A DNA stretch of 64,000 nucleotides from Luteibacter jiangsuensis (lineage in GTDB: Bacteria; Pseudomonadota; Gammaproteobacteria; Xanthomonadales; Rhodanobacteraceae). This document shows positions 37,668 through 61,225 of this stretch, one piece after another. The position numbers were made by a program, and so were the translations under genes. The stretch covers positions 186,001 through 250,000 of the forward strand of contig NZ_JAAQQR010000001.1 of assembly GCF_011742555.1 (NCBI RefSeq). The letters are read 5' to 3'. The notes beneath the pieces were generated by a model. That model searched no databases, was not told the DNA's origin, and saw only the letters and a list, made by a program, of their open reading frames with translations. Position 1 is the first letter of the stretch. Each line of letters opens with the position of its first letter.

Positions 37668-38016
37668 GCGCCGCGGCCATGTCGATACCTCGCGGACCGC
37701 ACCCCGAACCGCTGTGGCCGCTTCCGACGATGGAGTCAGGCTCGGCCATTCGCCCACCCCCGGCTAGCGCGCCAGTTGTATATGCCGCTCCCAACCCCGG
37801 GGCTATAAAGATTCCACAGACGCGAAGGGTCAACCGGCCCCGGGGCGTGGCGGGAGATCGCATGAATGCCGAGGGTACGGCGGGGCCGACAGGGGGCACC
37901 AGGGGCAGCGAAGCGGACGGTGGGCGCACACGGAGCGCCCTGCCCATCCGCCCCGCCGACACCTCGACCGTTCGGCCTATGCCATCGCGTTCTCCCAATC
38001 GGTACGGGGCCAGACC
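37668..38016. other. 349-bp leader region of the megasynthase operon
   Basis: Between the terminator and the first NRPS/PKS start there is no clearly conserved gene. An AT-rich patch TTGTATATG (37776-37784) and CTATAAAG (37803-37810) may mark the promoter, but the spacing of these boxes is too wide (about 21 bp) to be convincing. GC-rich runs such as CCCCGG repeat around it. A short coupled frame is listed separately. Confidence 0.45.
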
Positions 38017-38020
38017 ATGA
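37862..38020 (+). CDS. Possible 52-codon leader frame coupled to the megasynthase gene
   Basis: ATG 37862 follows GGGAG by 5 bases, and the frame's TGA overlaps the megasynthase ATG as ATGA. The peptide (MNAEGTAGPTGGTRGSEADG, then Arg/Pro-rich) resembles no family. It uses codons such as AGG, AGA and ACA that nearby genes avoid, so it may be fortuitous. If translated, it would couple translation into the operon. Confidence 0.25.
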   Translation: MNAEGTAGPTGGTRGSEADGGRTRSALPIRPADTSTVRPMPSRSPNRYGARP

Positions 38021-41000
38021 GCGATGCAATGACCGCCGCAGGGCACGACACATCCACCGTCCACGGCCGCTTCCGCGCCGTCGCGAAGGCTTTCGCGGAA
38101 CACGTCGCCCTGGTGTCGGACACGGCTAGCCTGAGCTATGCCGAACTGGACGCGCGCAGCGATCGCGTCGCCGCGAACCTGACAGCCGCGGGCGTGGAGC
38201 CGGGCTGTTATGTGGCGCTGTTGCTGGACCGTTCGGCGGAAGCGGTGATCGCGCTGCTGGGGGTACTCAAGGCGGGCGCGGCATACCTTCCGATCGATAC
38301 GCGCTGGCCCGACGACCGGGTGGCGTTCGCCCTGCGCGACGCCGACGTCGCCGCCGTCGTGACCGACGATGTGCGTGACATGTACGGGAATGACGATGTA
38401 CCGGTGTTCACCCTCGCGGAACTGGAGCGCACAACACCGATGTGGGAAACGCCCTCGGGCGCGAACACCTGCGAAGCGGCACGTCACCGGGCTTCCGGAA
38501 GCGACCTTGCCTACGCGATGTACACCTCCGGTTCCACCGGTACGCCCAAGGGCGTCGAGATCCGCCACGTGTCGATCCTGCGGCTCGTGTTGCGCTCGGA
38601 TTACATCGACTTCAACGCGCCCAACGTACTGCATGCCGCCCCCCTGGGCTTCGACGCGTCCACGTTCGAGATCTTCGCGCCGCTTCTCAACGGCGGAACC
38701 TGTGTCGTGCACGGCGAACGCGTGCCGACGGGCCCCGGCATCGCCCGCACCGTGGCCAAACACGGCGCCGATGTCGCGTGGCTTACCGCCGCGCTGTTCA
38801 ATGCCATCGTGGACGACGACCCGCGCCACCTGGCCGGGTTGCGCGTGGTGATGACGGGCGGCGAGGCGCTGTCGGTGCCGCATGTGCGCAAGGCGTACGC
38901 GGCGCTTCCCGCCACCGCGCTGATCAACGGCTATGGCCCCACCGAATGCACCACGTTCGCGACGACCTATGCGATCCCGCGCAACCTGCCCGACGACCTG
39001 CGGGCCATACCGATCGGGCGCCCCATCGGCGAGACCTCTCTGCATGTGCTCGACAGCGACGGCAACGACGTCGCCGAGGGCGAAACCGGCGAACTTTATA
39101 TCGGCGGCACGGGCGTGGCCCGCGGCTACCTCAACCGGCCTGAGCTCACCGCCGAGCGCTTCGTCGCGGGTGGCACACGCTATCGCACCGGCGACCTGGT
39201 GCATTGGCTGCCCGACGGCGAGCTCGCCTTCGTCGGCCGCGCCGACGGCCAGGTGAAGATCCGTGGCTATCGCGTCGAAACGGGCGAGATCGACATCGCG
39301 CTGCGCGCTCTGCCCGGCGTGACAGCGGCCGCTGTGGTCGCCCGCGAAGACACCCCGGGAGACAAGCGCCTCGTCGCCTATTACGTCGGCGAAGACGACA
39401 CCGTGACGGCGCGGGGGTTACGCGACGCACTGGCTCGTACCCTGCCCGACTACATGCTTCCCGTGGCGTGGGTGCGCATGGAACGCCTGCCCGTGAACGA
39501 CAACGGCAAACTCGATCGCAAGGCGCTGCCGGCACCCGACGCCGCGCGCCCGGAACTCGCGGCGGCCTTTGCCGCGCCACGCGGCGATCTGGAAACGGCA
39601 CTGTGCAACCTCTTCGCCGACGTTCTCGGCGTCGCCCGCGTCGGTCGCGACGACAACTTCTTCGACCTCGGCGGCAGCTCGCTGCTTGCGTCGCGCGTGA
39701 TCGCGCGCGTGCATGACGAGCTGTCGCCCGTCCCGACCCTGGTCGGGTTCTTCGCCGAGCCGACCCCGGCTGCGGTGGGAGCCACGATCGAGGGGCGCGC
39801 CGTCCGTCACGCGCCGGCAGGACGCGTGACGGGCGGCGCGCAGGCGGCAGGGGAACCGGTGGCGATCGTCGCCGTGGCCGGGCGCTTCCCCGGCGCACCC
39901 GACGCCGAGAGCTTCTGGGAGAACCTTTGCGCGGGCCGCGAATCCATACGCTTCTTCGCGCCGGGTGAACTGGATCCGGCCGTGAGCCAGGTCGAACGCG
40001 ACGATCCGGGTTATGTGGCGGCGCGCGGCGTGGTCGACGACGTGGACCAGTTCGACGCCGGATTCTTCGGCATGTCGCCCCGCGAGGCGGAACTGACCGA
40101 TCCGCAGCAGCGCCTGTTCCTCGAGTTGTGCTGGGAGTGCATGGAGCGCGCCGGCTACGTACCCGACGGTCAGTCGGCCCCCGTGGGTGTCTTCGGCGGC
40201 ATGCACAATGCCACGTATTACCAGAAGCACATCAGCGGCCGCCCGGACCTCATCGAAAAGCTCGGTGCCTTCCAGGTGATGCTGGGTAACGAGAAGGACT
40301 ATCTCGCCACCCGCGTGGCGCACAAGCTCAACCTCACGGGCCCGGCGATCAGCCTGAATACCGCATGCTCCACGTCGCTGGTCGCGATCGCCCAGGCCTT
40401 CGATGCCCTGCGCGCGGGCCGCTGTGAGATGGCGCTCGCAGGCGGCTCGTCCATCGCCTGCCCGCCGAACAGCGGATACATCGCGCAGGAAGGATCGATG
40501 TTGTCGCCCGACGGGCATACGCGCACCTTCGACAAGGACGCACAGGGCACGGTGTTCAGCGATGGCGCCGCCGTGGTGCTGCTGAAGCGCCTTTCCGATG
40601 CCCTTCGCGATGGCGATCCGGTGTATGCCGTGATCCGCGGTGCCGCCGTGAACAACGACGGCGCCGTCAAGGCCAGCTTCACCGCGCCCAATGCCGCAGG
40701 GCAGGCAGCGGTGATCGCCATGGCGCTGGACGACGCCGGCATCTCGCCCCGCGACATCTCCTACGTGGAGGCGCACGGTACCGCGACCCCGCTGGGCGAT
40801 CCCATCGAGCTGGAAGGGCTCACGCGCGCCTTCCGCCGCGCCACTGCGGACAAGGGTTTCTGCGCGCTGGGCTCGCTGAAGAGCAACGTGGGCCATCTGG
40901 TGATGGCAGCCGGCGCGGCCAGCGTGATCAAGACGGCGTTCGCACTCAGCGAACGCCGCCTGCCGCCGTCGTTGCACTTCACGTCGGCGAATCCTCGCCT

Positions 41001-44000
41001 GGGCCTGGAAGATTCGCCCTTCGTGGTGAACGACGCGCTGCGCCCATGGCAAACGGCGGGTGGCCCGCTTCGCGCCGGCGTGAGCTCGTTCGGCGTGGGC
41101 GGTACGAATGCCCATGTGGTGCTGGAGGAAGCCCCGGAGCGTTCGCCCTCCGAGCCCGCCAGCGGACCCCAGTTGCTCTTGCTCTCCGCGCGCACGCCGG
41201 CGGCGCTGAGCCACGCGGCCGCGCGGTTGGCCGACCACCTCGCCGCGCATCCGGACGGCAATCTGGCCGACACTGCGTGGACGCTGGCCTGTGGCCGCAA
41301 GGCGTTCGCGCAACGCACGCACCTGGTGGCGCTTTCGACGGGCGACGCGGTGACGAAACTGCGCGACATCGCCGCTGCCGCCATGTGCCGCGCCTGTGCC
41401 GACCCGGCACCCCGTATCGTTTTCCTCTTCCCGGGCCAGGGTTCGCAGTACGCCGGCATGGGACGCGAACTCCACGCGACGGAGCCCGTATTCCGCGCCG
41501 CGCTGGACGAGGTAGCGAACGCTCTGCTCGAGGAACTCGGTTTCGATCTGCGCGACCGCATGTTCGCCGACGATGCGGAGGCCCTGAAGGCCACCTCGCT
41601 TACCCAGCCGGCCACCTTCGCGCTCGAATACGCACTTGCGCGGCTATGGATGAGCCTGGGTGTGGAACCCGTCGCGATGATAGGACACAGCGTCGGCGAG
41701 TTCGTCGCCGCCGCGCTCGCGGGCGTCATGCCGCTGGCCGACGCCGCCCGCCTGGTGGCACGCCGCGGCCGCATGATGCAGGCGCTTCCGGCGGGTGCGA
41801 TGCTTTCCGTTCGCCTGGGCGCCGCCGAGCTGCGAGCGCGGCTCCCGGGTGTCCTTTCCCTCGCGGCCGAGAACGCCCCGAACGCGAGCGTCGTGTCGGG
41901 ACCGGCAGCAGCCGTCGACACCTTCCGCTTGCTGCTGGAGGGGGAAGGCGTGGCATGCCGCCTGCTCCATACCTCGCACGCATTCCACTCCGCCATGATG
42001 GACCCGGTACTCGACGGCTTCCGCTCGGAAGTCGGTGCGGTTGCGCTCTCCGCGCCGCGGGTGCCGATCGTTTCCACCCTTACCGGCCTTCCGCTGACCG
42101 CGGCCGAGGCCACGTCGCCTGACTACTGGACGAGGCACCTGCGGCAGACCGTGCGTTTCTCGCCGGCGCTGTTGCATGCCCTGGACGACGACACGCACGC
42201 GTTCCTCGAGGTCGGGCCGCGTCCGAGCCTTGCCCTGCTCGCACGACAGCATGCGCAGGCACGCGGCCGCACGATCCTGGCTTCGCTGGGCGAAGGCCCC
42301 GCCGATGAGCGCGCCGCATGGCTCGCCGCCGCCGGTGCGCTGTGGTCCGCCGGCGCCACGATCGCCACGCATGCCTTCGATCACCGCGAGCAACGCCGTC
42401 GCGTACGCCTGCCCACCTACCCCTTCGAGCGTAAACGGCACTGGATCGATGCCCGGTTGCCTGCCTCGATCACCCCTATCGCCGCCGCGGCCGCGCTCGC
42501 GCCACCCGCCGCCGCTCCTGCCGTCGTACCGGAGTTCCCCATGCCGATGCCTTCCGCTCCTGCTTCCAGCCACCGTCCGCAGCGCCTCGCCGCCGAACTC
42601 GTCACCCTGTTCGAAGACGTGTCGGGTGCCGATCTCGACGGCGTCGACCCGTCCACCCATTTCGTCGAACTGGGGCTGGACTCGCTTTCGCTGACCCAGG
42701 TGGCCTTGCAGTTGCAGAAGACCTACGCGCTGAAGATCACCTTCCGCGAGCTGATGGACGGCTGCTCGTCGTTCGAGCGCCTCGCGGCACACATCGATCG
42801 CCTGTTGCCGGCTGAAGCCCAGCCGGCGGCGCCCGTGGCCGCGGCAGTTCCCGCGCCGGCCATGGCGGCGGCACCGGCGGCGCAGGCCGTCGGTGGCGGA
42901 CTGGTCCAGGACGTGATCGCGCAGCAGATGCAGATCATGCGGGAACAGTTGGCGTTGCTTGCGGGAGCCGCCGCTTCCGCGCCTTTGCCGGCAGGGGGAA
43001 CCCTTCCCGTTGTGGGAGCCGGCTACGCCGGCGATCCCGCGGCAGCGGGCGGTCTCGCGCAAGCCCCCATCGCCGCTGAAGCGGCTCCCACACATAGCGC
43101 CGCCAACGACGAAGAAGCCGCCCTCGCCCACACCACCTACGACGTGAAGAAGGCTTTCGGCGCCATTGCGCGCATCCACTCCACGAACACGGAACTCAGC
43201 GCGCGGCAGCGCGCGCGGCTGGACGCCTTCATGCGTCGCTACATCGAGCGCAGCAAGGCATCCAAGGCCTATACCGAAGAGCACCGCCCGCACCTCGCCG
43301 ATCCGCGCGTGGTGAACGGTTTCCGCCCGCTGCTCAAGGAGATCGTGTACCAGATCGTGATCGAGCGCTCCAAGGGCTCGAAAGTGTGGGACCTCGACGG
43401 GAACACATACGTGGACGCCCTGAACGGCTTCGGCATGAACCTGTTCGGCTGGCAGCCCGATTTCGTGCTCGACACGGTACGCGCGCAACTGGAAGCAGGT
43501 TACGAAATCGGCCCGCAGCATCCGCTCGCCGGCATCGTGGCAAAACAGGTGTGCGACCTCACGGGTTTCGACCGCGCCGCATTGTGCAATACCGGCTCCG
43601 AAGCGGTCATGGGTTGCGTGCGCGTGGCGCGCACCGTCACCGGCCGCGACACGCTGGTGATCTTCACCGGGTCTTACCACGGCATCTTCGACGAGGTGAT
43701 CGTCCGCGGAACGAAGAAACTGAAATCGGTGCCGGCCGCCCCGGGCATCCTGCGCAACACCGCCGAGAACGTGCTGGTGCTCGACTACGGCACCCCGGAA
43801 TCGCTGGCCATCATTCGCGAGCGCGCCTCGTCCATCGCCGCCGTGCTGGTCGAACCGGTGCAGAGCCGCCGCCCGGACTTCCGGCCGGTGGAGTTCCTGC
43901 AGGAGTTGCGCGCGATCACCGAGGAATCCGGCACCCTGCTCATCTTCGACGAGGTGGTCACCGGCTTCCGCTCGCACCCGCGCGGCGCCCAGGCGATGCT

Positions 44001-44676
44001 CGGCATCGACGCGGACATGGCGTCGTACGGCAAGGTGGTGGGCGGCGGTTTTCCCATCGGCGTGATCGCCGGCAAGCGGCGCTTCATGGACGCGCTCGAC
44101 GGCGGTCACTGGCGCTTCGGCGACGATTCCACGCCGACCGTGGGCGTCACCTATTTCGCCGGTACTTTCGTGCGCCATCCGCTCGCACTGGCGGCCGCGC
44201 ATGCCGTGCTCATGCACCTGAAGGAACAGGGACCCGAGTTGCAGGCCGCGCTGAATGCGAAGGTCACCGCGATGGCCGAGGAGCTGAATGCCTTCTGCGC
44301 CAGCGTGGGGGCACCGGTGCAAATTGTGCACTTCTCGTCGGTGTGGAAGATCGTCTTCAGCGAAGACCATCCGCTGCAGGACCTGTTGTTCGCCATGATG
44401 CGCAGCCGCGGCATCCACATCCTCGACAACTTCCCCTGCTTCTTCACCACGGCGCACAGCGAGGCCGATTTCGCGGCCATCGCCAATGCCTTCCGCGAGT
44501 CCATCCTCGAGATGCAGGAAGCCGACTTCCTGCCGCGCCGCCGCGAACACGCCGCCTTCGACGCCGCCCATCCGCCCATGCCCGGCGCGCGCCTGGGCAA
44601 GGATCCGGACGGCCAGCCGGCGTGGTTCGTTCCCAACCCGGATGCGCCGGGCAAGTACCTGAGGGTTACCGCATGA
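38017..44676 (+). CDS. Hybrid NRPS/PKS: A-PCP-KS-AT-ACP-aminotransferase
   Basis: 2219 residues. The loading adenylation domain (~15-520, TSGSTGTPKG at ~169, GYGPTE) is followed by PCP (GGSSLLA, Ser ~555) and KS (~608-1035; Cys784 in TACSTS, His in EAHGTA and SNVGH). AT (~1130-1430) has GHSVGE and HAFH, the malonyl-type motif. ACP has LGLDSLSL (Ser ~1555), and the class III aminotransferase (~1750-2200) has FDEVVTGFR and the PLP lysine in SYGKVVGGG. There is no ketoreductase, so the beta-ketone should be transaminated directly. Eye-read specificity residues D-A-F-W-M-G-G-T-F resemble valine codes. The KS-AT-ACP-AMT order recalls iturin/mycosubtilin and microcystin synthases. Residues 1666-1692 are encoded by a REP element. 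ATGA overlap with the next gene. Confidence 0.93.
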   Translation: MSDAMTAAGHDTSTVHGRFRAVAKAFAEHVALVSDTASLSYAELDARSDRVAANLTAAGVEPGCYVALLLDRSAEAVIALLGVLKAGAAYLPIDTRWPDDRVAFALRDADVAAVVTDDVRDMYGNDDVPVFTLAELERTTPMWETPSGANTCEAARHRASGSDLAYAMYTSGSTGTPKGVEIRHVSILRLVLRSDYIDFNAPNVLHAAPLGFDASTFEIFAPLLNGGTCVVHGERVPTGPGIARTVAKHGADVAWLTAALFNAIVDDDPRHLAGLRVVMTGGEALSVPHVRKAYAALPATALINGYGPTECTTFATTYAIPRNLPDDLRAIPIGRPIGETSLHVLDSDGNDVAEGETGELYIGGTGVARGYLNRPELTAERFVAGGTRYRTGDLVHWLPDGELAFVGRADGQVKIRGYRVETGEIDIALRALPGVTAAAVVAREDTPGDKRLVAYYVGEDDTVTARGLRDALARTLPDYMLPVAWVRMERLPVNDNGKLDRKALPAPDAARPELAAAFAAPRGDLETALCNLFADVLGVARVGRDDNFFDLGGSSLLASRVIARVHDELSPVPTLVGFFAEPTPAAVGATIEGRAVRHAPAGRVTGGAQAAGEPVAIVAVAGRFPGAPDAESFWENLCAGRESIRFFAPGELDPAVSQVERDDPGYVAARGVVDDVDQFDAGFFGMSPREAELTDPQQRLFLELCWECMERAGYVPDGQSAPVGVFGGMHNATYYQKHISGRPDLIEKLGAFQVMLGNEKDYLATRVAHKLNLTGPAISLNTACSTSLVAIAQAFDALRAGRCEMALAGGSSIACPPNSGYIAQEGSMLSPDGHTRTFDKDAQGTVFSDGAAVVLLKRLSDALRDGDPVYAVIRGAAVNNDGAVKASFTAPNAAGQAAVIAMALDDAGISPRDISYVEAHGTATPLGDPIELEGLTRAFRRATADKGFCALGSLKSNVGHLVMAAGAASVIKTAFALSERRLPPSLHFTSANPRLGLEDSPFVVNDALRPWQTAGGPLRAGVSSFGVGGTNAHVVLEEAPERSPSEPASGPQLLLLSARTPAALSHAAARLADHLAAHPDGNLADTAWTLACGRKAFAQRTHLVALSTGDAVTKLRDIAAAAMCRACADPAPRIVFLFPGQGSQYAGMGRELHATEPVFRAALDEVANALLEELGFDLRDRMFADDAEALKATSLTQPATFALEYALARLWMSLGVEPVAMIGHSVGEFVAAALAGVMPLADAARLVARRGRMMQALPAGAMLSVRLGAAELRARLPGVLSLAAENAPNASVVSGPAAAVDTFRLLLEGEGVACRLLHTSHAFHSAMMDPVLDGFRSEVGAVALSAPRVPIVSTLTGLPLTAAEATSPDYWTRHLRQTVRFSPALLHALDDDTHAFLEVGPRPSLALLARQHAQARGRTILASLGEGPADERAAWLAAAGALWSAGATIATHAFDHREQRRRVRLPTYPFERKRHWIDARLPASITPIAAAAALAPPAAAPAVVPEFPMPMPSAPASSHRPQRLAAELVTLFEDVSGADLDGVDPSTHFVELGLDSLSLTQVALQLQKTYALKITFRELMDGCSSFERLAAHIDRLLPAEAQPAAPVAAAVPAPAMAAAPAAQAVGGGLVQDVIAQQMQIMREQLALLAGAAASAPLPAGGTLPVVGAGYAGDPAAAGGLAQAPIAAEAAPTHSAANDEEAALAHTTYDVKKAFGAIARIHSTNTELSARQRARLDAFMRRYIERSKASKAYTEEHRPHLADPRVVNGFRPLLKEIVYQIVIERSKGSKVWDLDGNTYVDALNGFGMNLFGWQPDFVLDTVRAQLEAGYEIGPQHPLAGIVAKQVCDLTGFDRAALCNTGSEAVMGCVRVARTVTGRDTLVIFTGSYHGIFDEVIVRGTKKLKSVPAAPGILRNTAENVLVLDYGTPESLAIIRERASSIAAVLVEPVQSRRPDFRPVEFLQELRAITEESGTLLIFDEVVTGFRSHPRGAQAMLGIDADMASYGKVVGGGFPIGVIAGKRRFMDALDGGHWRFGDDSTPTVGVTYFAGTFVRHPLALAAAHAVLMHLKEQGPELQAALNAKVTAMAEELNAFCASVGAPVQIVHFSSVWKIVFSEDHPLQDLLFAMMRSRGIHILDNFPCFFTTAHSEADFAAIANAFRESILEMQEADFLPRRREHAAFDAAHPPMPGARLGKDPDGQPAWFVPNPDAPGKYLRVTA
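43012..43091. repeat. REP doublet inside the megasynthase coding sequence
   Basis: The 80-bp element begins GTGGGAGCC and ends GGCTCCCAC, matching the intergenic copy at 19135-19215 in reverse orientation; 35 and 26 terminal bases are identical. It falls in the low-complexity linker between the ACP and the aminotransferase and is translated in frame as an Ala/Gly-rich stretch (VGAGYAGDPAAAGGLAQAPI...). The reading frame stays open. Confidence 0.9.
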
Positions 44677-51074: not shown

Positions 51075-51098
51075 GCGAAGGCGCCCGGGGGGAACGCC

Positions 51099-52229: not shown

Positions 52230-53332
52230 TCCCAACGACCCAGCGCGGCGCGCCCGGCATTCGAGGCCGGCTCGGCGAACTCTGTTATTCCAGCGGCCTG
52301 CTGCATTCCCTGCAGCGTGTGCGCGCCTGGTGGCAGCGCGACTTGCGCATTCTCGCCTATCACCGCGTGATGCCCGTGCCGGATCCGGACGCCTACGAGT
52401 TCGACATGGAACTGATCAGCACGCCGCCTGCCGAGTTCCGCGAGCAGATGCTGCGGCTGAAGAGACATTTCCGGCCGATCCGACTTACCGACGTGGTCGC
52501 CGCGCTCGATGCGGGCGAGGCGCTTCCGCCGGATTCCGTCGCGGTCACCTTCGACGACGGATACGACGACAACTACCGTATCGCAGCGCCGATCCTGGAC
52601 GAGGTGGGTGTACCGGCCACCTTCTTCGTTTCCACCGGCCACCTCGATACGGGCCGGCCGTACGCGTACGACTGGCTGGTGCACATGATCCTTCTGACGG
52701 ATGCGCCGCAGCTCGTGCTGCCGGAGCTGGCGATCGACATCCCTCTTCCGGCCACGCGTGCGCTGCGACGCCGTATCGCAGGTAACGTGCTACTGCGCAT
52801 GAAATGGATGGACGCCCTCGGCCAGACGGCGATGATCGAACGGCTCGAGGCCGAATGGGGCATGCCTTCGGTCAATGCGCGCCCCGCCGACTGTCGCCCG
52901 ATGACCTGGGACCAGGCGCGCGAAATGGAAGCCGCCGGCCTGGAGTTCGGTTCGCACGGCGTGCACCACCGGATGCTGGCCCGGCTTCCGCAGGACGACA
53001 TGGAGCGCGAGATTCGCGAGTCGAAGGCCACGCTGGACCGGGAGCTGCGCCATCCCGCGGTGCTCATGTCGTATCCCATCGGCGGCGATCGGGCCTATAA
53101 CGACGCGGTGATAGCCGCCACGCGCAACGCTGGCTTCCAGCTGGCGTGCAGCTACATCTGCGGCACCAACGCCGAGCCCAGCGAGAACCGCTATGCCCTG
53201 CAGCGCCTGCCGGTGGAAAGCAACATGGGCCCTGGCTGGTTCGCGGCGATGCTCGCGCTGCCACAGCTGATGAGTTACCCCACGCCGCCGCACGCCGCCA
53301 ACGGGCCGCGGGAGATGTCATGTTCCCCCTGA
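52223..53332 (+). CDS. Polysaccharide deacetylase (NodB-like)
   Basis: 369 residues starting inside the 3' end of the GT2 gene. Polysaccharide-deacetylase motifs are visible: LAYHRVMP near residue 48, TFDDGYDDNY near 110 (metal Asp), PATFFVSTGHL, and the SHGVHHRML metal histidines near 245. Enzymes of this family remove N- or O-acetyl groups from glycans. The position within the glycan operon suggests it frees amino groups on a hexosamine, either on a lipid-linked precursor or on the polymer. No signal peptide, so a cytosolic or membrane-face action is likely. Its stop overlaps the next gene by 13 bases. Confidence 0.9.
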   Translation: MVIPTTQRGAPGIRGRLGELCYSSGLLHSLQRVRAWWQRDLRILAYHRVMPVPDPDAYEFDMELISTPPAEFREQMLRLKRHFRPIRLTDVVAALDAGEALPPDSVAVTFDDGYDDNYRIAAPILDEVGVPATFFVSTGHLDTGRPYAYDWLVHMILLTDAPQLVLPELAIDIPLPATRALRRRIAGNVLLRMKWMDALGQTAMIERLEAEWGMPSVNARPADCRPMTWDQAREMEAAGLEFGSHGVHHRMLARLPQDDMEREIRESKATLDRELRHPAVLMSYPIGGDRAYNDAVIAATRNAGFQLACSYICGTNAEPSENRYALQRLPVESNMGPGWFAAMLALPQLMSYPTPPHAANGPREMSCSP

Positions 53333-54582
53333 TCCTCCTCTACGTCGTTCTCACCATCATTCGTCCCCAGGACTACGTCGCGGGGCTGGACACCGTGCCC
53401 ATCCTGCCGGTTGTGCTGCTCATGGCATTCGCGGCATGGGTGGTGTCGAAGGAGAAAACCTTCGAAGCACCGCAGTTCGTGATCCTTCCGGCCTTCCTTC
53501 TCATCCTCATGGTGTCGCAGGCGACCAACGGCTGGGCCGGCGGCGCCGTGGACGAGCTGGCCCGCTTTGGCCCTGTCGTGATCGCGTTCTTCATCTTCGG
53601 CGCCTCATGCGGCACGCAGAAGCGCGTACGCGTGGCCATGGGCGTCTTCGTCGCTTGCGCGGCGGTACTCGCCGTGCACGGCGTCGAGCAGGCGAAACTC
53701 GGCGTGGGCTGGACGGGCGTTCCCCTGGGCGAGGGCGGTCGCATCCAGTACGTGGGCATCTTCAACGACCCCAACGACCTGGGCCTGCTATTCGCTTCCA
53801 CCTTTCCCATGGCCGTATTCCTCGGCCGCCGTGGCGCGAGCATGCTGCGGCCGGTATGGCTCGGTGCGGCGCTGTTGCTGCTCTACGGCACCTATCTCAC
53901 CAATTCGCGCGGCGCCATGCTCGCCGTGCTTGTCGTGGCAGGCTGCTATATCTGGTATCGCAAGGGCATGGCCGTGGCAGCCGTGCTCGGCGTGTTGGGA
54001 CTCGCGGTGCTCAAGATGCTTTCCTCGCGCATGGAGGAACTGGACGCGGGGGAGGAATCCGCCGCCGGCCGCGTCGATGCCTGGTACTCGGGCCTGGAGA
54101 TGTTCCGCGACAATCCGCTGCTCGGTGTCGGTCCCGGCAACTTCACCGAGTACAACGAACTGACCGCGCACAACTCCTTCATCCTGGTGCTGGCGGAAAC
54201 CGGCTTCGTCGGCTTCGTACTCTGGCTGGCATTCGTGGCCTACGGCTTCCTCATGATGCTGAAGATCGTGAGGTTCCAGCGCCCGGCGGACGCCGACCCT
54301 GCCGTCGAAGCCGCCTGGACGACCGAAAAGCAGATGGCCCTCACGTTGCTGCTCTCGCTCTGCGGACTGTTCGCCGCCGCCTTCTTCCTGAGCCGAAGCT
54401 ACATGGTCGTGCTGTACCTCATCGCGGCCATGGTCGCCGGGCACTACGTCGGCGCTCGCCGGCGCTGGCCCGAGCTGCCGATGTTTCGCCTTTCCGACGG
54501 CGGCTGGCGCTGGGTACCCACCGGCGCGTGCAGCGTGTTCGCGTTGTTCGTCCTCGTCGCATTCCTGTTGCGCACCACATGA
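53320..54582 (+). CDS. O-antigen ligase/Wzy-like polysaccharide polymerase
   Basis: 420 residues with about ten membrane helices. The Wzy_C-type large loop includes NDPNDLGLLFAST, TNSRGAMLAVL and GPGNFTEYNELTAHNSFILVLAETGF, which are typical of O-antigen ligase domains. This enzyme polymerises or ligates lipid-linked oligosaccharide at the periplasmic face. It resembles the polymerase of exosortase-A type clusters. GGGAGA precedes the ATG at 53320. It ends in an ATGA overlap with the CapK-like gene. No Wzx flippase is visible in the window. Confidence 0.9.
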   Translation: MFPLILLYVVLTIIRPQDYVAGLDTVPILPVVLLMAFAAWVVSKEKTFEAPQFVILPAFLLILMVSQATNGWAGGAVDELARFGPVVIAFFIFGASCGTQKRVRVAMGVFVACAAVLAVHGVEQAKLGVGWTGVPLGEGGRIQYVGIFNDPNDLGLLFASTFPMAVFLGRRGASMLRPVWLGAALLLLYGTYLTNSRGAMLAVLVVAGCYIWYRKGMAVAAVLGVLGLAVLKMLSSRMEELDAGEESAAGRVDAWYSGLEMFRDNPLLGVGPGNFTEYNELTAHNSFILVLAETGFVGFVLWLAFVAYGFLMMLKIVRFQRPADADPAVEAAWTTEKQMALTLLLSLCGLFAAAFFLSRSYMVVLYLIAAMVAGHYVGARRRWPELPMFRLSDGGWRWVPTGACSVFALFVLVAFLLRTT

Positions 54583-55934
54583 AGACCTACGAAACCCTGC
54601 TGCGCCGCGTTCTCTGGCCCGTCTACGAAGGCGGCCTTCGCCGGCGCGACACGCCGGCCTACGTGCGCCGCTATGCGCACGAGCAATGGTTGTCGGCCGA
54701 GGCGATCCAGGCCTTGCAGTTCGAACGGCTGAAGCGATTGCTGGACTGGTGCTATCGGGAGGTGCCCTACTATCGCCGGCGCTGGGATGCCGAAGGCATC
54801 GAACCGCGTGACATCCGCAACCTGGACGACTACGCCAGGCTGCCGGTGTTGACGAAGGCGGACATCCGCGCGAACGCCGAGGATCTCAAGGCGCGCACGC
54901 TGAAGGATACGCTGGCCTACAAGGCCACCGGCGGCTCCACAGGCGAGCCCCTGCGCTACGGATACACGCGCGAAAGCAACGATCGCCGCATCGCGGTCAT
55001 GTGGCGTGGCTACGGCTGGGCGGGCTCGCGCATGGGCCGGCGCACACTGTTTCTCTGGGGCGGGCCCGTGGGCGAGCCGAGCCGCTCGCAGCGGGCCAAG
55101 GACCGCTTTTACAACGCCGTGTTCGCCCGCAAGGTGCTCGACAGCTTCCGCATGAGCGAAAGCAACATGGCCGACTACGCGAATGCGATCGACGCGTACC
55201 GCCCGAAAGTGATCGTCGGCTACGTCGGCCCGCTCGTCCGCCTCGCGGAATGGCTGCTGGCACACGGGCGGCGAGTGGCTCGCCCGGAATCGATCATCGG
55301 CGCCGCCGAGGCCTTGCATCCGTTCCAGCGCGAGATCATCGAGCGCGCCTTCGGTGCGCCCGCCTTCAACACCTATGGCTGCCGCGAGGTGATGCTCATC
55401 GCCTCCGAGTGCGAACATCGCGAGGGCCTGCACGTGAACGCCGACCACCTGGTGGTGGAAACGCTGGGCGCCGACAGCAAGCCCACGCGAACGGGCAGCG
55501 GCGAAGTAGCCCTCACCGACCTCTTCAACTACGGCATGCCCTTCATCCGCTATGTGAACGGCGACATGGCCACGCACGCAACGTCGCAGTGCGCATGCGG
55601 CCGGGGCCTGCCGCTGCTCGCCTCCGTCGACGGACGCAAGCTCGATGCCATCCGCACGCCGGCCGGGAATATCCTTCCGGGCGAGTTCTTCCCGCACATG
55701 CTCAAGGACGTTCCCGGCCTGGCCCGGTTCCAGCTCGTGCAGCGCAGCCTCGAACGCCTCGACCTCTCCATTGTGCGAGGTCGCGATTTCGAGGACACCT
55801 CGCTCGACTACATTCGCCGCGAAGTCGCCAAGGTGCTGGGCGACAGCACCGAGCTGCACTGTCATTTCGTCGACGACATTCCCCTCACCCGCAGCGGCAA
55901 GCTGCGCGTCACCGTTTCGGAGCTGGCGTCGTGA
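54579..55934 (+). CDS. CapK/PaaK-like adenylate-forming enzyme
   Basis: 451 residues starting MKTYETLLRRVLWPVYEGGL. The substrate/ATP loop ATGGSTGEPLRY, NTYGCREVMLIASECE and the C-terminal LTRSGKLRVTV are features of the phenylacetate-CoA ligase / CapK branch of the AMP-forming superfamily. CapK-like proteins are frequent in capsule clusters, but their reactions are mostly unproven. Here, next to an NRPS without a release domain, it could activate or transfer an acyl group, but that is inference. It is joined by ATGA upstream and GTGA downstream. Confidence 0.88.
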   Translation: MKTYETLLRRVLWPVYEGGLRRRDTPAYVRRYAHEQWLSAEAIQALQFERLKRLLDWCYREVPYYRRRWDAEGIEPRDIRNLDDYARLPVLTKADIRANAEDLKARTLKDTLAYKATGGSTGEPLRYGYTRESNDRRIAVMWRGYGWAGSRMGRRTLFLWGGPVGEPSRSQRAKDRFYNAVFARKVLDSFRMSESNMADYANAIDAYRPKVIVGYVGPLVRLAEWLLAHGRRVARPESIIGAAEALHPFQREIIERAFGAPAFNTYGCREVMLIASECEHREGLHVNADHLVVETLGADSKPTRTGSGEVALTDLFNYGMPFIRYVNGDMATHATSQCACGRGLPLLASVDGRKLDAIRTPAGNILPGEFFPHMLKDVPGLARFQLVQRSLERLDLSIVRGRDFEDTSLDYIRREVAKVLGDSTELHCHFVDDIPLTRSGKLRVTVSELAS

Positions 55935-57049
55935 ACATCACCCACTTCGTGGAGAACCTCAACCGCGGCGGCCTGGAGCGCATGGTCATCGACCTGGTGA
56001 AGGAGCAGCACCGGGAGGGCCACAAGGTGCAGGTGGTATGCCTGTTCGAGCGCGGCTCGCTGGCCCCGGAGCTGGACGCCATCGGGGTGCCCGTCTCGGC
56101 ATGCCACAAGCGCAAGGGCTTCGACCTGCGCGCGCTGGGGTGCGCCCGCCGCCTGTTGGCCGAACACCGCACGGAGGTCCTGCATACGCATAACGCGGTG
56201 GCGCATTACCAGGCGGTGCTCGCCAGCGCGGGCATGGGTATCCGCCAGGTGGTGAACACACGACACGGCATGGGTGCGCAGCGCAAGCCGGGGCGGCGGG
56301 AATGGCTGTTCCGCCGCGCACTCGCCGCCACCGACGCCGTGGTCGCCGTGTGCCAGGCCGCGCGCGACGACGCGGTCCGCCGCGGCATCGCACCCGCCGC
56401 GAAAACGTGCGTGGTGCCGAACGGCATCGTGCTCGACGGCTTCGACGTGGCCTCGGATGCCATGCACGAACGGCTCACCCGGCTTCTTCGCGTACCGCCC
56501 GGCACGCGCATCGTGGGCAGCGTGGGACGGTTGAACTGGACCAAGGACCAGGCCGGCCTCATCCGCGCCTTTCGCATCGTGCGTCATGCCCGTCCGGACA
56601 CCGCCCTGGTTCTGGTGGGCGACGGCGAACTGCGCGAGACGCTCCGGGCCTGCGCCTTCGACGAAGGCGTAGCCGGCTGCGTGCACTTCCTGGGCGACCG
56701 CGACGACGTGCGCGAACTGATGCAGGGTTTCGACCTGTTCGCGCTCTCGTCGGTTACCGAGGGTTATTCAATGGCCCTGCTGGAGGCCTGTGCGGCAGGC
56801 CTTCCGATCGTCGCCACCAACGTGGGCGGCAACGCGGAGATCGTGCACGACGATGCCACCGGGCGGCTCGTGCCTCCTTGCGACCCGCCGGCGCTCGCCA
56901 ACGCGATTCTCGAGCTGCTGCATGCGTCGCACAGGGCATCCACCCTGGGTACGGCAGCGCGGGCGTGGGTGGAAGCCCATGGATCACTACAAGCCATGGC
57001 GGCGCGCTACGGCCAGCTCTATTTCGGCGACCTGGATACGGCGTCGTGA
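55931..57049 (+). CDS. Family 4 glycosyltransferase
   Basis: 372 residues from GTG 55931. GT4 features are clear: N-terminal ITHFVENLNRGGLERMVIDL, hinge VGRLNWTKDQAGLIRAF and the C-terminal EX7E block SSVTEGYSMALLEACAAGLP. It transfers a sugar from a nucleotide donor, retaining configuration. The sequence is close to the TIGR03088-like transferases of exosortase-A-associated clusters. GTGA overlaps couple it to genes on both sides. Confidence 0.9.
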   Translation: MNITHFVENLNRGGLERMVIDLVKEQHREGHKVQVVCLFERGSLAPELDAIGVPVSACHKRKGFDLRALGCARRLLAEHRTEVLHTHNAVAHYQAVLASAGMGIRQVVNTRHGMGAQRKPGRREWLFRRALAATDAVVAVCQAARDDAVRRGIAPAAKTCVVPNGIVLDGFDVASDAMHERLTRLLRVPPGTRIVGSVGRLNWTKDQAGLIRAFRIVRHARPDTALVLVGDGELRETLRACAFDEGVAGCVHFLGDRDDVRELMQGFDLFALSSVTEGYSMALLEACAAGLPIVATNVGGNAEIVHDDATGRLVPPCDPPALANAILELLHASHRASTLGTAARAWVEAHGSLQAMAARYGQLYFGDLDTAS

Positions 57050-58254
57050 AAGTCCTGGTCGTCACCAATCTCTTTCCGACGCCCTGGGATCCCCGGCGCG
57101 GCACGTTCAACCGGCAGCAGTTCCAGCGCCTTGCGGAACGCCACGAGGTGCACGTGCTCACGGCGGTCGATTTCCGCGAACGCATGGCCGGCACGTCGGG
57201 CGACGCCGGTGTGGCGGGCGTCGTCTCCGACTACTTCACCTTCTTCCACCCGCCCGGCTTCGGCCGCTTCCTCAATGCGTTCTGTTTCTTCGCCTGCCTC
57301 ATGTGGCAGCGACGCCGCGACCTGCGTAACGCGGGCTACGACGTGATGCTGGCGAGTTGGGGCTATCCGGACGCGGCGGGGGCCGCATGGGTCGCTCGCC
57401 TGCTCGGCATTCCGTATGTGGTGAAGGTGCATGGCAGCGACCTGAACGTGCAGGCGGAGTTCCGCCTGCGTCGACCGCAGATCCGCTGGGCGCTGCGGGG
57501 GGCCGCCGGCGTGATTGCGGTCAGTCGGGCCCTGGCGCGCAAGGCGGTGGACCTTGGCGCAAGCGCGGACACGGTCGAACCCTTGTACAACGGCGTCGAC
57601 ACGCGCCTCTTCCACCGCGGCGACCGGAGCGCCGCGCGCGCGCGGCTCGATCTGCCCGCCGGCGCGCCAATCGTGCTCTACGCAGGCAACCTGAAGGCCA
57701 CGAAGGGATGCCTCGACCTCATCGAGGCCTTTCCGGCACTGATGGCCCGCCACCCGGACGCAAGGCTCGTCTATGTGGGCGACGGGCCGTGCCACGGCAA
57801 CCTCGAGGACAGGGCCGCGGCCTTGTGCGTCGCCCCTGCGGTGCGCCTGGTCGGCGCCGTGGACCACGCCGAACTGGCCGACTGGTTCCGCGCGGCAAAC
57901 GTACTATGCCTTCCGAGCCATAACGAAGGCGTGCCCAACGTGGTATTGGAAGCCATGGCCTGCGGCATACCTATCGTCGCCACCGCCGTCGGTGGCATTC
58001 CCGAGGTCGTTCCCGACCACGCGGGCATCCTCGTGCCCCCGCATCAATCGCACGAACTCGGCACCGCGCTGGTGGAAGCGTTCGAACGCCACTTCGATCC
58101 GGCGGCGATCGCGGCGCACGCCGCCACCTTCCGCTGGGAAGAAAACATCGACCGGCTGGAGCGCGTGCTCCTTCGTGCCGTGGCGGGTGCCAACCGGCTA
58201 CCGCGACGCAGAACCACCCCACCCGATCAGCCTGGCCGCCTGCCGAACACATGA
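57046..58254 (+). CDS. Family 4 glycosyltransferase
   Basis: 402 residues from GTG 57046, within a GTGA overlap. The N-terminus VLVVTNLFPTPWDPRRGTF is the classic start of polysaccharide GT4 enzymes. The middle has HGSDLN, the GT-B switch is LYAGNLKATKGCLDL, and the C-terminal EX7E is SHNEGVPNVVLEAMACGIP. It would add one residue of the repeat unit. An ATGA overlap connects it to the deacetylase gene that follows. Confidence 0.9.
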   Translation: MKVLVVTNLFPTPWDPRRGTFNRQQFQRLAERHEVHVLTAVDFRERMAGTSGDAGVAGVVSDYFTFFHPPGFGRFLNAFCFFACLMWQRRRDLRNAGYDVMLASWGYPDAAGAAWVARLLGIPYVVKVHGSDLNVQAEFRLRRPQIRWALRGAAGVIAVSRALARKAVDLGASADTVEPLYNGVDTRLFHRGDRSAARARLDLPAGAPIVLYAGNLKATKGCLDLIEAFPALMARHPDARLVYVGDGPCHGNLEDRAAALCVAPAVRLVGAVDHAELADWFRAANVLCLPSHNEGVPNVVLEAMACGIPIVATAVGGIPEVVPDHAGILVPPHQSHELGTALVEAFERHFDPAAIAAHAATFRWEENIDRLERVLLRAVAGANRLPRRRTTPPDQPGRLPNT

Positions 58255-58889
58255 CCCTGAAACTCAGAAAACAAGACCTTCTCGGCCTGCTGCCGGAGCA
58301 TCTCGTCCTCACGCGCACCCGCGACGCCGACCTGCGCTACCTGAGCTTCGACGACGGCCCGGACCCGGAGCACACGCCGAAGCTCCTGGACGTGCTTGCC
58401 AGACACGGCGTGAAGGCGAGCTTCTTCCTGGTGGGCGAGAAGATCGAACAGCACCCCGACATCGTGAAGCGCATCGTCGAGGAAGGCCACATGATAGGAA
58501 ATCATTCGTACAGCCACTGGTCGTTCCGCAACATGAACCTCGCGAAGCAGCTCGACGAGGTGTATCGCACCGACGCCGCGCTTCGCCTGTTCGACAATCG
58601 GCCGCACCATCGCATGCGCCCGCCGCACGGCTATGTCGGAGCCTCGTTGCTCGCGCATTTCGCCCGCCGGCGCCGCAGTCTCGTGTACTGGTCTTACGAC
58701 AGCCTCGACTACCAGGACCGTCCGGTGGGCGCGTTGATCGATCGCCTTCGCAATGACCCTCCCCTTGCGGGCGACATCGTGCTCATGCACGACGACAGCG
58801 ACAAGGCGGCCGATGCGCTCGACGTACTCTTGCCGGAATGGCTGGCGCAGGGAATGCGCTTCGCCGCGCTGCCCGGGAGCGCCGCATGA
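58251..58889 (+). CDS. Polysaccharide deacetylase (NodB-like)
   Basis: 212 residues, close to the minimal NodB domain. Motif 1 is LSFDDGPDPEHT, motif 2 MIGNHSYSHWSF (metal histidines), motif 3 RPPHGYV and motif 4 DIVLMHDDSD, all intact. It removes acetyl groups from N-acetylhexosamines. It is the second intact deacetylase in this operon, which suggests a glycan with free amino groups or sequential modification of different sugars. No signal peptide is evident. Overlaps of four bases on both sides. Confidence 0.92.
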   Translation: MTLKLRKQDLLGLLPEHLVLTRTRDADLRYLSFDDGPDPEHTPKLLDVLARHGVKASFFLVGEKIEQHPDIVKRIVEEGHMIGNHSYSHWSFRNMNLAKQLDEVYRTDAALRLFDNRPHHRMRPPHGYVGASLLAHFARRRRSLVYWSYDSLDYQDRPVGALIDRLRNDPPLAGDIVLMHDDSDKAADALDVLLPEWLAQGMRFAALPGSAA

Positions 58890-60052
58890 GGATCCTCTAC
58901 CATCACCGCACCCGCGGCCGGCACGTGGAAGGCGTGCATATCCGCGGCATCGTGGGGGCACTGCGCGAGCTGGGCCACGACGTGGACGTGATGTCGTTTC
59001 CCGGCGCCGACCCGGAGCGCGAAGTGGAGACGACGACGACCGGGAGCCGTAGCCGTCTCGCCGGCCTTGTCACGAAGCTTCCCGGCGTCGTCTTCGAGAT
59101 GTTCGAGCTGCTCTACAACGTGGTCACACTGGCGCGTATGAGCCGCGCGTGGCGGGTGGCACAGCCGCAGCTCATCTATGAGCGCTACTCATTGTTCCTG
59201 TTCGCCACCATCTGGCTGGCCCGGCGGCGCGGCATTCCGCTGGTGCTGGAAATCAACGATTCGGCACTGGTGGAGCGGGTGCGGCCTCTGAAAATGCGCT
59301 TGTTGGCACGGCGCATCGAACGCTGGTGTTTCCGGCATGCCACGGGCCTGGTGTTCATTTCCACCTACTTTCGCGAAACTGCTATAGCCGCCTACGGCGA
59401 GATCTCGCCTTGCGTCATTTCACCGAATGCCGTGGACCTGCCCCGTTTCGATCCGTCGCGTTTCGATCGGGAGGTCCTGCGTACGCAACGCGGACTCAGC
59501 GGAAGGACAGTGTGCGGCCACGTTGGGGCGTTCGCGCATTGGCACGGCGTGGACGCCTTCGTCGAGGCCATCGCCCAGCGGCTCGACAGCGTGCCGGACC
59601 TTGCGCTTGTTTTCGTCGGCGACGGCAAGACGCTGCCGGCCGTGCGCGAGCTGATCGAGGCACGCGGCTTGTCGGACCGCGTACTGCTGCCGGGCCGCGT
59701 TCCCCACGACGAGGTGGCGAGCTGGATCGCCTGCATGGACTATGCCGTGTTGCCCAACTCCAATCACTATGGTTCGCCGATGAAGCTCTTCGAGTTCATG
59801 GGCATGGGCGTGGCAGTGGTGGCGCCCGACTACGCGCCCGTTGCCGAGGTGATCGCCGATGGTCACACCGGCTGGCTGTTCCCTCGCGGCGACGCCGCGG
59901 CCTGCGTCGAACGCGTGCTCGAACTGGCCCAGCAGGCGGAGGAACGCAGGCGCGTCGGGCAGGCTGCCCGCGATTACATCGCGAATGAACGGCAGTGGCG
60001 CAACAACGCGGAACAGCTATTGACACTCGTGCCAGCCGAGGCATGCCCATGA
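58886..60052 (+). CDS. Family 4 glycosyltransferase
   Basis: 388 residues. The N-terminus MRILYHHRTRGRHVEGVHIR contains the His-rich donor-side loop of a GT4. LVLEINDSALVER and the C-terminal block SNHYGSPMKLFEFMGMGVAV (EX7E-like) complete the signature. It adds a sugar in the repeat unit. ATGA coupling on both sides keeps it in the operon. Confidence 0.88.
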   Translation: MRILYHHRTRGRHVEGVHIRGIVGALRELGHDVDVMSFPGADPEREVETTTTGSRSRLAGLVTKLPGVVFEMFELLYNVVTLARMSRAWRVAQPQLIYERYSLFLFATIWLARRRGIPLVLEINDSALVERVRPLKMRLLARRIERWCFRHATGLVFISTYFRETAIAAYGEISPCVISPNAVDLPRFDPSRFDREVLRTQRGLSGRTVCGHVGAFAHWHGVDAFVEAIAQRLDSVPDLALVFVGDGKTLPAVRELIEARGLSDRVLLPGRVPHDEVASWIACMDYAVLPNSNHYGSPMKLFEFMGMGVAVVAPDYAPVAEVIADGHTGWLFPRGDAAACVERVLELAQQAEERRRVGQAARDYIANERQWRNNAEQLLTLVPAEACP

Positions 60053-61224
60053 TCGCAGCCGTCGCCCTCGTCTTCCTCCTCGCCGCTGCGCTGCTGCTGA
60101 CCATAGCCATCCGCGCGCGCAACATGCAGTACTGGCTGTGGGGCTACCTCACGCGGCGCAAGCCGCCCAGGGCCGAAGGTCCGGTGCATGTGCTGTTCTG
60201 CTTCGTGGATCATTTCGAGCCGAACTGGGGTCGCGTGGATATGGACACCCAGCGCCGCCGCGTGGACCGCTGGTGCGCCGAGTATCGCGCGCTGGCATCG
60301 CGCCACCGCGACGCGGACGGGCGCATGCCACAGCACACCTTCTTCTACCCGGAAGAAGAGTATGTGGAGGAACACCTCGACAAGATCGCCGGTCTGTGCG
60401 CCGACGGCTATGGCGAAATCGAGATCCACCTGCATCACGACAACGACACACCAGAGAACTTCGTCGCCACCATGGACCGGTTCAACCGCCTGCTGCACGA
60501 CAGGCACGACGCGCTTCCCCGCGATCCGGTGACCGGTCAGCTGCGCTTCGCGTTCATCCACGGCAACTGGTGCCTGGACAATTCGCGCCCCGACGGGCGC
60601 TGGTGCGGCATCGACAATGAATTGATCCTGCTGCGGGAGCTCGGCTGCTACGCCGATTTCACCCTACCCTCGGCGCCGAGCGACACACAGACGCGCATGT
60701 CGAACGCCATCTACTACGCCACCGACGATCCGCAGCGCTGCAAGTCGCACGACACCGGCGTGCCGATGCGCGTCGGCGGCGAGCCCGTGGGCGACCTGCT
60801 GATCATCCAGGGGCCTCTGGGCCTGAACTGGAAGGACCGCCGCTTCGGCATCGTGCCGCGTATCGAGAATTCCGATATCCGCAAGGGCTGCCCGCCGTCA
60901 CGCCATCGCGTGGACCAGTGGGTTCGCACGGGGATCCACGTGGAAGGCCGCCCGGAATGGGTGTTCGTGAAGGTACACACGCACGGCACGCAAGAGCGTG
61001 ACATGGACACGCTGCTGGGCAAGCCGATCGAAGACATGCACGATTACCTGGAGACCGCCTACAACGACGGTAGCGATTACGTGCTGCACTACGTGACGGC
61101 GCGCGAAATGTACAACGTGGCCAAGGCGGCAGAGGCCGGAATGACCGGCAACCCGGGCCTTTATCGCGACTTCGAACTGGCTCGCCCCGGGAAGATCCCC
61201 GAACCCGCCCAGGCAACCGGATGA
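60049..61224 (+). CDS. Membrane-anchored deacetylase-superfamily-like protein, unassigned
   Basis: 391 residues from ATG 60049 within an ATGA overlap. One N-terminal membrane helix (~3-22) is followed by a large cytosolic or periplasmic domain. Possible metal-binding elements are FCFVDHFEPNWG near residue 50 and EIEIHLHHDND near 125; FIHGNWCLDN lies near 170. The spacing (Asp-His early, HxHHD later) recalls the polysaccharide deacetylase/glycoside hydrolase superfamily, but the standard NodB motifs are absent. It is the last gene of the operon, convergent with the GT2 gene 2 bp away. Activity is not known. Confidence 0.75.
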   Translation: MIAAVALVFLLAAALLLTIAIRARNMQYWLWGYLTRRKPPRAEGPVHVLFCFVDHFEPNWGRVDMDTQRRRVDRWCAEYRALASRHRDADGRMPQHTFFYPEEEYVEEHLDKIAGLCADGYGEIEIHLHHDNDTPENFVATMDRFNRLLHDRHDALPRDPVTGQLRFAFIHGNWCLDNSRPDGRWCGIDNELILLRELGCYADFTLPSAPSDTQTRMSNAIYYATDDPQRCKSHDTGVPMRVGGEPVGDLLIIQGPLGLNWKDRRFGIVPRIENSDIRKGCPPSRHRVDQWVRTGIHVEGRPEWVFVKVHTHGTQERDMDTLLGKPIEDMHDYLETAYNDGSDYVLHYVTAREMYNVAKAAEAGMTGNPGLYRDFELARPGKIPEPAQATG

Positions 61225-61225
61225 A

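Follow-up and report, generated by a model that had tools for sequence, protein, structure and literature searches.

We analysed a window of 64 kb, the whole stretch of Luteibacter jiangsuensis DNA under study, which sits on contig 11 of a draft genome of 4.33 Mb. Eleven successive plus-strand genes at 38017-61224 join a hybrid nonribosomal peptide synthetase/polyketide synthase (NRPS/PKS, gene 1) and an NRPS (gene 2), together called the cassette below, to nine genes (3-11) of glycan type. The reading that we favour, with a probability just above one half, is that this operon builds the repeat unit of an exopolysaccharide and decorates it, while it is linked to lipid, with a beta-aminated acyl peptide. 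The functional link between the megasynthase and glycan halves is well supported, since it is conserved in the family of the host. Attachment of the product to the polymer is inferred, as the interpretation that fits this link best.

According to this scheme, gene 1 would load an amino acid (its code being valine-like), add one malonate and aminate the beta-keto group, so that its carrier would bear a chain of beta,gamma-diamino acyl type, and gene 2 would add one or two small residues (glycine-like code). No built-in thioesterase would release the chain, which would instead pass, at the inner membrane, to an amine of the lipid-linked repeat unit, exposed beforehand in the cytoplasm by the deacetylases (genes 4 and 9). 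The repeat unit itself would be assembled by genes 3, 7, 8 and 10 on the lipid product of an upstream phosphotransferase, while a flippase, the Wzy protein (gene 5) and downstream XrtA-type co-polymerase and export proteins would finish and export the polymer.

Organization of the operon

The sequence-only reading had described an eleven-gene coupled operon on the plus strand, and its layout was confirmed by the coordinates (Table 1). Eight of the ten junctions are overlaps of 4 nucleotides, genes 4 and 5 overlap by 13 nucleotides and genes 2 and 3 are separated by a gap of 24 nucleotides. Alternative starts are found for gene 4 (ATG at 52223) and gene 11 (60043). Gene 1 may well be the first of the operon, because a terminator-like hairpin precedes it (one found, 0.6 expected in shuffled sequences). 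No sigma-70-like promoter was found in the ranges scanned (37300-38100 and 50900-61400), which has little weight in a GC-rich genome.

The domain orders proposed earlier for genes 1 and 2 agreed with both the Pfam matches and the active-site motifs, and Pfam also supported the assignments of a GT2 glycosyltransferase, a deacetylase, a Wzy-like protein, three GT4 glycosyltransferases and a second deacetylase. The description of gene 6 as CapK-like held in part: phenylacetate-CoA ligases of the PDB were matched (2y4o, E 2e-27), while the Pfam search gave no match and the NCBIfam models stayed below their cut-offs. Both deacetylases carry NodB-type catalytic motifs, and signal peptides are absent by eye; the nearest NCBIfam model to gene 4 is PgaB (TIGR03938), with a score far under its cut-off. 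Gene 11 had no match in Pfam or NCBIfam and nothing better than E 0.28 in a profile search of the PDB. Its family is strongly conserved (mean column identity of 77% over 15 rows), and its single-sequence structure model is of low confidence (pLDDT 43).

Gene 1 and its expected product

Gene 1 unites a ketosynthase (KS, NTACSTSL), an acyltransferase (AT, GHSVGE), carrier domains (T, LGGSSL and LGLDSL) and a class-III aminotransferase (AMT, SYGKVVGGG) in one protein whose catalytic motifs are intact. The match of its AMT to the aminotransferase of mycosubtilin synthetase MycA (6kfu/6kfm, E 3e-122) bore out the earlier claim of a beta-amino-forming assembly line. The adenylation (A) domain is of an amino-acid-type starter, with an intact A3 core (TSGSTGTPKG), the binding Asp and the presumably valine-like code DAFWMGGTFK. 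A HAFH motif was read in the AT, presumably a mark of malonyl specificity. No ketoreductase (KR), dehydratase (DH) or enoylreductase (ER) domain was found in gene 1 with Pfam. Because the AMT is MycA-like, the intermediate expected from these domains is a 3,4-diamino acyl chain, to which one or two small residues would then be added. Two genes of the phosphopantetheinyl transferase superfamily (PF01648) are present in the genome, both on other contigs.

These features bear on the proposal that the cassette makes a special lipid or acyl primer for assembly or anchoring of the glycan, a role that may be suspected for the type I PKSs of rkp and wcb loci. Type I PKS genes (wcbR, rkpA) are known in capsule clusters (PMC3908369), and the locus studied here includes both an initiating transferase and a PaaK-like ligase. 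However, a single extension, the lack of reductive domains, an amino acid starter and an aminotransferase point to a short polar product and not to a lipid, and the glycan genes are kept without the cassette in some genomes, so that we consider a primer very improbable.

The starter code followed the pattern DA[FL]W[LMIF]GGTFK in 14 of 19 full gene 1 proteins of Xanthomonadales-like loci and differed in the other five (a hand count, from which the window protein and a few stand-alone A-T proteins were excluded). The gene 1 homologues of Bacteroidota loci had different starter codes, and those of Pedobacter and others read, for example, DVQFMAQVVK. Such differences between lineages suggest a swap of the cargo amino acid.

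The terminal module and tail of gene 2

Gene 2 has intact motifs in both condensation (C) domains (HHIVCDG and HHIIWDG) and both T domains (LGGHSL and VGGHSL), and these two C domains are the only ones found in the genome. The code of its first A domain (A1) is DIMQVGGVYK, which is only related to the DILQ-type codes that we assume to be glycine-like. The second A domain (A2) is degenerate, as the sequence-only reading had it: its A3 core is TLGADGKMRG instead of TSGSTGxPKG, and the Asp at the amino-binding position is missing. Pfam found no thioesterase (TE) domain in gene 1 or gene 2.

Comparison of 36 two-module gene 2 proteins, that of the window included, showed an intact A2 in 9, a degenerate one in 15 and none in 12. 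When a quick tree was drawn from the first module, the intact or lost state of A2 was seen to change at least five times and the absent state nine times, six of them forced by well-supported branches; each change may be a gain or a loss, and two distant architectures (L116 and L118; L and G numbers are our handles for loci and genomes) were excluded. The HHxxxDG motif of the second C domain (C2) was kept in 35 of the 36 proteins (HQ in L075) and the serine motif of the last T domain (T2) in 36 of 36. This repeated decay or disappearance of A2 with its C and T partners intact is a new observation. The terminal C-T pair thus appears to be under selection without an A domain of its own, which leaves two possibilities: loading of both T domains by A1, or transfer of the chain by C2 to something else. 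A glycan acceptor for C2 would also explain the missing thioesterase.

Loading of both T domains by A1 would leave A2 partly redundant. In the nine proteins with an intact A2, this domain was always of the DILQ type, while A1 was DILQ in six, DIMQ in two and DVWH in one (L076), and the ten-letter codes of A1 and A2 were identical in three of the nine. Loading of the A-less T2 by the PaaK-like gene 6 is another possible route. Five genomes without the megasynthases (G004, G026, G030, G099 and G195) have gene 6, and its retention there with the glycan genes argues for a role in the glycan.

The last modules end in tails such as KRGLLGRLLGRG or LGxRLRxLFGRR; this basic amphipathic ending is, like the fate of A2, a new observation. 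Either of two amphipathic patterns, picked after inspection of the tails and applied to tails of 15-70 residues, was present in 35 of 48 related proteins, where shuffling of the tails predicted 2.0; among 16 tails of other NRPSs it was present in 2, where 0.5 were predicted. The net charge of the tail was at least +3 in 43 of the 48. Hydrophobic-moment shuffle tests of tails of 15-120 residues gave mixed results, many single tails being not significant, and a single-sequence model of T2 and the tail placed a helix at the tail with low confidence (pLDDT 51). The tail could possibly serve in membrane binding or in docking of a partner.

The surrounding exopolysaccharide locus

The operon lies between other polysaccharide genes (Table 1): initiating, flippase, chain-length and export genes flank it. 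Upstream of the megasynthases, homologues of the dehydrogenase were found in L061, L063, L066, L067 and L070, the epimerase had a close homologue at the same place in L061, L066 and L070 and a weaker one in L063 and L067, the GMC oxidoreductase was syntenic in L061, L066 and L070, and the initiating phosphotransferase was syntenic in L061, L063, L064, L066, L067 and L070. The downstream part covers about 255-267.5 kb of contig 11, with flippase, kinase, chain-length and export genes 7-17.5 kb past the end of the window. The same part of the locus holds a TIGR04325 methyltransferase, a GNAT-type protein (PF13480), an outer membrane protein and a tyrosine kinase of XrtA type (both below cut-off), and two alpha/beta hydrolases that resemble XrtA-associated hydrolases 1 and 2 (TIGR03100/03101, below cut-off). 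With the initiating phosphotransferase, flippase, Wzy protein (gene 5), chain-length and export proteins, the Wzx/Wzy set is complete.

That the sugar genes instead glycosylate the peptide, to give a discrete glycosylated peptide or lipid and no decorated polymer, is unlikely given this set, which indicates a polymer. Such a product would fit the four glycosyltransferases that share the operon, and there is a precedent in short NRPS genes that overlap glycosyltransferase genes (PMC3849588).

Table 1. Coordinates and evidence for the operon and associated features (positions are those of the window unless an L number is given)
Feature	Position	Strand	Evidence and remarks
TviB-type nucleotide-sugar dehydrogenase (UDP-GlcNAc C6 dehydrogenase)	23372-24757	+	NF011729, 615.8 bits (cut-off 592)
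NAD-dependent sugar epimerase	24772-25782	+	PF01370
GMC-type oxidoreductase	25816-27474	+	PF05199
Initiating polyprenyl-phosphate sugar phosphotransferase	27606-29006	+	TIGR03013, 560.9 bits (cut-off 393); PF02397
Terminator-like hairpin followed by seven T	37641-37660	+	Between preceding gene and gene 1
Gene 1, NRPS/PKS A-T-KS-AT-T-aminotransferase	38017-44676	+	2219 aa; Pfam domains and active-site motifs
Gene 2, NRPS C-A-T-C-A*-T (A*, degenerate), no thioesterase	44673-51074	+	2133 aa; Pfam and motifs; basic amphipathic C-terminal tail
Gene 3, GT2 glycosyltransferase	51099-52229	+	PF00535
Gene 4, polysaccharide deacetylase	52226-53332	+	PF01522; TFDDG and HGVHH motifs
Gene 5, Wzy/O-antigen ligase family membrane protein	53320-54582	+	PF04932, 78.1 bits, over cut-off
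Gene 6, PaaK/CapK-like adenylate-forming enzyme	54579-55934	+	NCBIfam PaaK-like models below cut-off
Gene 7, GT4 glycosyltransferase	55931-57049	+	PF00534/PF13692; nearest NCBIfam TIGR03088 (XrtA system), below cut-off
Gene 8, GT4 glycosyltransferase	57046-58254	+	PF13692
Gene 9, polysaccharide deacetylase	58251-58889	+	PF01522; SFDDG and HSYSH motifs; NCBIfam PgdA/PdaB/NodB models below cut-off
Gene 10, GT4 glycosyltransferase	58886-60052	+	PF13692; nearest NCBIfam TIGR04063 (XrtA system), below cut-off
Gene 11, conserved protein	60049-61224	+	Long hydrophobic N-terminal helix
Flippase	L059 7170-8939	-	PF01943 over cut-off
Chain-length protein	L165 3274-4806	-	TIGR03007 over cut-off; Pfam Wzz below cut-off
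Export protein	L165 4843-5475	-	TIGR03027 over cut-off
Cupin_8 gene near cassette	L061 6972-7922
Cupin_8 genes near cassette	L070 8129-9055, 9298-10215
Cupin_8 gene near cassette	L164 8679-9857
Cupin_8 gene near cassette	L087 11561-12595
Cupin_8 gene near cassette	L107 18887-19756

Conservation in the family and order

The sequence-only reading had proposed a search for the same gene order in other genomes, and this search showed that the linkage is kept in many genera. The family sample was of 197 genomes and 26 genera, drawn from a larger group. The AMT region of gene 1 was found in 89 of these genomes (19 of the 26 genera), at an identity of at least 71% in 69 and of 43-57% in the other 20, while gene 11 was found in 77 and gene 6 in 72. 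AMT and gene 11 occurred together in 68 genomes, on the same contig in 62 and on different contigs in 6; the distance between the two on the same contig was within 25 kb in 59 of 62 and within 45 kb in 62 of 62. Their co-occurrence was significant (Fisher p 5e-24, uncorrected for kinship). Comparison of 38 AMT-bearing stretches, picked by hand from the 89 genomes to span the identity range (L044, L046 and L048 are shorter than 20 kb), showed that 24 keep at least six of the nine glycan genes (3-11) at 45% identity or more and that two keep fewer. In the order, gene 11 was found in 21 of 150 genomes searched, 13 of them of the host's own family; three of the eight from other families have the AMT, each on the same contig and within 45 kb. 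This collinear recurrence in relatives places the arrangement beyond chance.

A mere neighbourhood, in which two unrelated operons were joined by chance or insertion, is the least probable of the alternatives. The sole non-overlapping junction, the gap between genes 2 and 3, does fall exactly between the megasynthase and glycan genes, but collinearity is kept from genus to genus and also outside the family within the order, and the cassette is enriched near a polysaccharide marker in distant genomes. Chance neighbourhood was rejected on this linkage, collinearity and proximity to PF02397 genes.

In the cassette-less genome G195, a deacetylase-like gene, a GNAT protein and other open reading frames (ORFs) stand before gene 3, while the cassette-less glycan stretches of G004 and G030 have an asparagine-synthase-type amidotransferase and an acyltransferase-3 protein, respectively. 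This suggests a set of exchangeable modules for modification, of which the cassette may be one.

The cassette beyond the order

A genome scan for the cassette, from which the best 80 of 587 relatives were kept, found it in Lysobacter, Pseudoxanthomonas and Rhodanobacter, in Burkholderiales (Xenophilus, Lautropia and Xylophilus, 62-69% identity) and in Bacteroidota and Cyanobacteria (53-59% identity). Thirty-one loci were taken from these 80 after exclusion of Xanthomonadales-like, short-flank and remote ones and of L093 (genome G212, with the same place and score as family genome G075); some of the 31 may still belong to the host's own family, of which the 197 genomes are a sample. The nearest transferase gene of the initiating type (PF02397) on the same contig was within 20 kb of the AMT in 8 of the 31 loci (0.87 expected) and within 50 kb in 13 (2.14 expected), the expected counts being from a chance model with random placement. 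With one row per near group, the counts were 7 of 26 within 20 kb and 9 of 26 within 50 kb. In Spirosoma, a GT2 gene, a weak GNVR-domain protein and a flippase surround the cassette, and in Rhizobium lusitanum a polysaccharide pyruvyl transferase is located near it. Within the family, cassette and polysaccharide genes are thus strongly tied; elsewhere the pairing is more frequent than expected, but not all loci show it.

In the Rhizobiales version (L097 and L101), the proteins are an A-T protein, a KS-AT-T-AMT-C-A-T protein and a separate C-T protein. L097 has a polysaccharide pyruvyl transferase, and a GMC oxidoreductase was seen by eye near the Rhizobiales loci.

Evidence bearing on a free product

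Several results weigh against delivery of the product to a polymer. In the family, gene 11 occurred without the AMT in 9 of 77 genomes, which speaks against an obligate role (four of the nine assemblies are at most 90% complete), and the five gene-11-only genomes that were inspected have the glycan genes and no megasynthases. The AMT occurred without gene 11 in 21 of 89 genomes, and none of genes 3-11 was present at 45% identity in 12 of the 38 stretches. Starter codes vary between lineages. Among the 31 loci, 18 have no PF02397 gene within 50 kb on their contig, some contigs being short; none was found within 50 kb in Xenophilus, Winogradskyella and Mucilaginibacter, and by eye the Xenophilus cassette (L077 and L078) lies near what look like housekeeping genes. 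For the last step no transferase could be named, the downstream GNAT protein and the hydrolase pair being the candidates.

Because 18 of the 31 lack an initiating transferase within 50 kb, the main rival is a free small diamino peptide (a signal, metallophore or antimicrobial) that is merely co-expressed with the exopolysaccharide and, for example, retained in the matrix or released. The Xenophilus neighbourhood fits such a peptide, as do the distant AMT homologues that in some family genomes lie within long multi-module NRPS/PKS genes (L047 and L049). The two XrtA-type hydrolases downstream of the window could also be trans-acting thioesterases; in Lysobacter concretionis (L072) such hydrolases immediately follow gene 2, and in Aquabacterium (L107) one follows the synthase. 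Against a free peptide, the eleven genes of the operon include no exporter or resistance gene, the linkage to glycan genes within 45 kb holds in all 62 same-contig family genomes, and translational coupling is found among the glycan genes and from gene 1 to gene 2. We rate a free product as rather unlikely and prefer decoration of the repeat unit.

A more tentative extension of the decoration reading, which we rate as rather unlikely as a whole, is that there is a widespread, so far unrecognized class of surface polysaccharides in which a modular NRPS/PKS line with interchangeable starter amino acids acylates the repeat unit at the membrane. The A-less C-T module would be the glycan transferase, with an amino sugar of an undecaprenyl-linked oligosaccharide as the acceptor of C2, and the basic tail would hold the megasynthase on the membrane. 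If such a class existed, the exchange of a single A domain would allow a lineage to give its matrix polymer another charge or identity.

Comparison with known systems

The locus resembles XrtA/PEP-CTERM exopolysaccharide loci in its TIGR03013, TIGR03007 and TIGR03027 matches over cut-off and, below cut-off, in its kinase, outer membrane protein and hydrolases; the XrtA-type label is based on these proteins, and no search was made for exosortase or PEP-CTERM proteins. It differs from such loci in that it includes the NRPS/PKS cassette. Gene 1 resembles MycA of the mycosubtilin/iturin family in its AMT match and in the order of KS, AT, acyl carrier protein and aminotransferase. The starter of MycA is a fatty acyl ligase and this family ends in a thioesterase, while genes 1 and 2 have neither, the starter here being an amino-acid A domain and the gene neighbours being those of a polysaccharide.

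The DltABCD system uses adenylation and a carrier protein to put an amine-bearing acyl group, D-alanine, on teichoic acids. The operon would share this adenylation and carrier route to the decoration of a surface polymer, but no homologue of the MBOAT-type DltB was found among the eleven genes, and a multi-step line takes the place of a single amino acid. In Nod factor synthesis by NodC, NodB and NodA, deacetylation exposes the amine of a sugar, and an acyl group from a carrier protein is then transferred to this nitrogen. A likeness to NodB is seen in gene 9 (TIGR04243, below cut-off), while the setting here is a Wzx/Wzy polymer locus, in which no NodA homologue was identified.

The rkpA and wcbR products are PKS or fatty acid synthase enzymes without NRPS modules that have a reductive KR, DH and ER module. 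The operon differs from them by amino-acid loading, one extension, transamination and peptide modules, and by the absence of the reductive module; the likeness to these capsule loci is a carrier-protein megasynthase within a polysaccharide locus (PMC3908369). Short single-module NRPS genes (C-A-carrier-TE) whose ends overlap a glycosyltransferase gene are described in Xanthomonas and Alcanivorax (PMC3849588), and the adjoining of an NRPS gene and a glycosyltransferase gene is the likeness to our operon. In contrast to this short NRPS or glycine-glucolipid type, the operon has no TE, two proteins, a PKS and AMT, the 24-nucleotide gap and a full polymer locus. Identity with the Xanthomonas META-B NRPS clusters was rejected: in the main text of PMC3849588, 'polysaccharide' and 'AMT' do not occur and 'aminotransferase' occurs once, in a reference title.

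No published exopolysaccharide decorated by an NRPS/PKS was found by title or abstract opening in the open-access PMC literature, a weak sign of novelty. Polysaccharides with amino-acid or acyl groups are known and, to our knowledge, simple donors supply these non-sugar groups. If the assembly line does supply a diamino peptide to a polymer, genome mining misfiles such clusters as small-molecule loci, and new cationic side groups for matrix polymers could be obtained by changing one A domain.

Other features of the region

Two large plus-strand ORFs (33743-35983 and 36138-37592) between the initiating transferase and gene 1 gave no match in Pfam or NCBIfam, and their homologues are at the same site in L060 (same genus) and, by eye, in L163. 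Cupin_8 genes occupy this site in L061, of the same genus, and in other genera. Cupin_8 accompanies the cassette in several genera and in Nostoc; none was seen in the window locus, and the host genome has two Cupin_8 genes on another contig. An autotransporter with a pertactin-like passenger (30899-33388, minus strand) is located within the exopolysaccharide locus. The end of a second exopolysaccharide locus (YjbH and a Wzb-type phosphatase, 100-972) lies about 22 kb before the dehydrogenase gene, and ORFs of L058 resemble, by eye, the transport genes of this second locus. An RND-type efflux operon (L059 63-5130, by eye) separates the operon of the window from the flippase and export genes.

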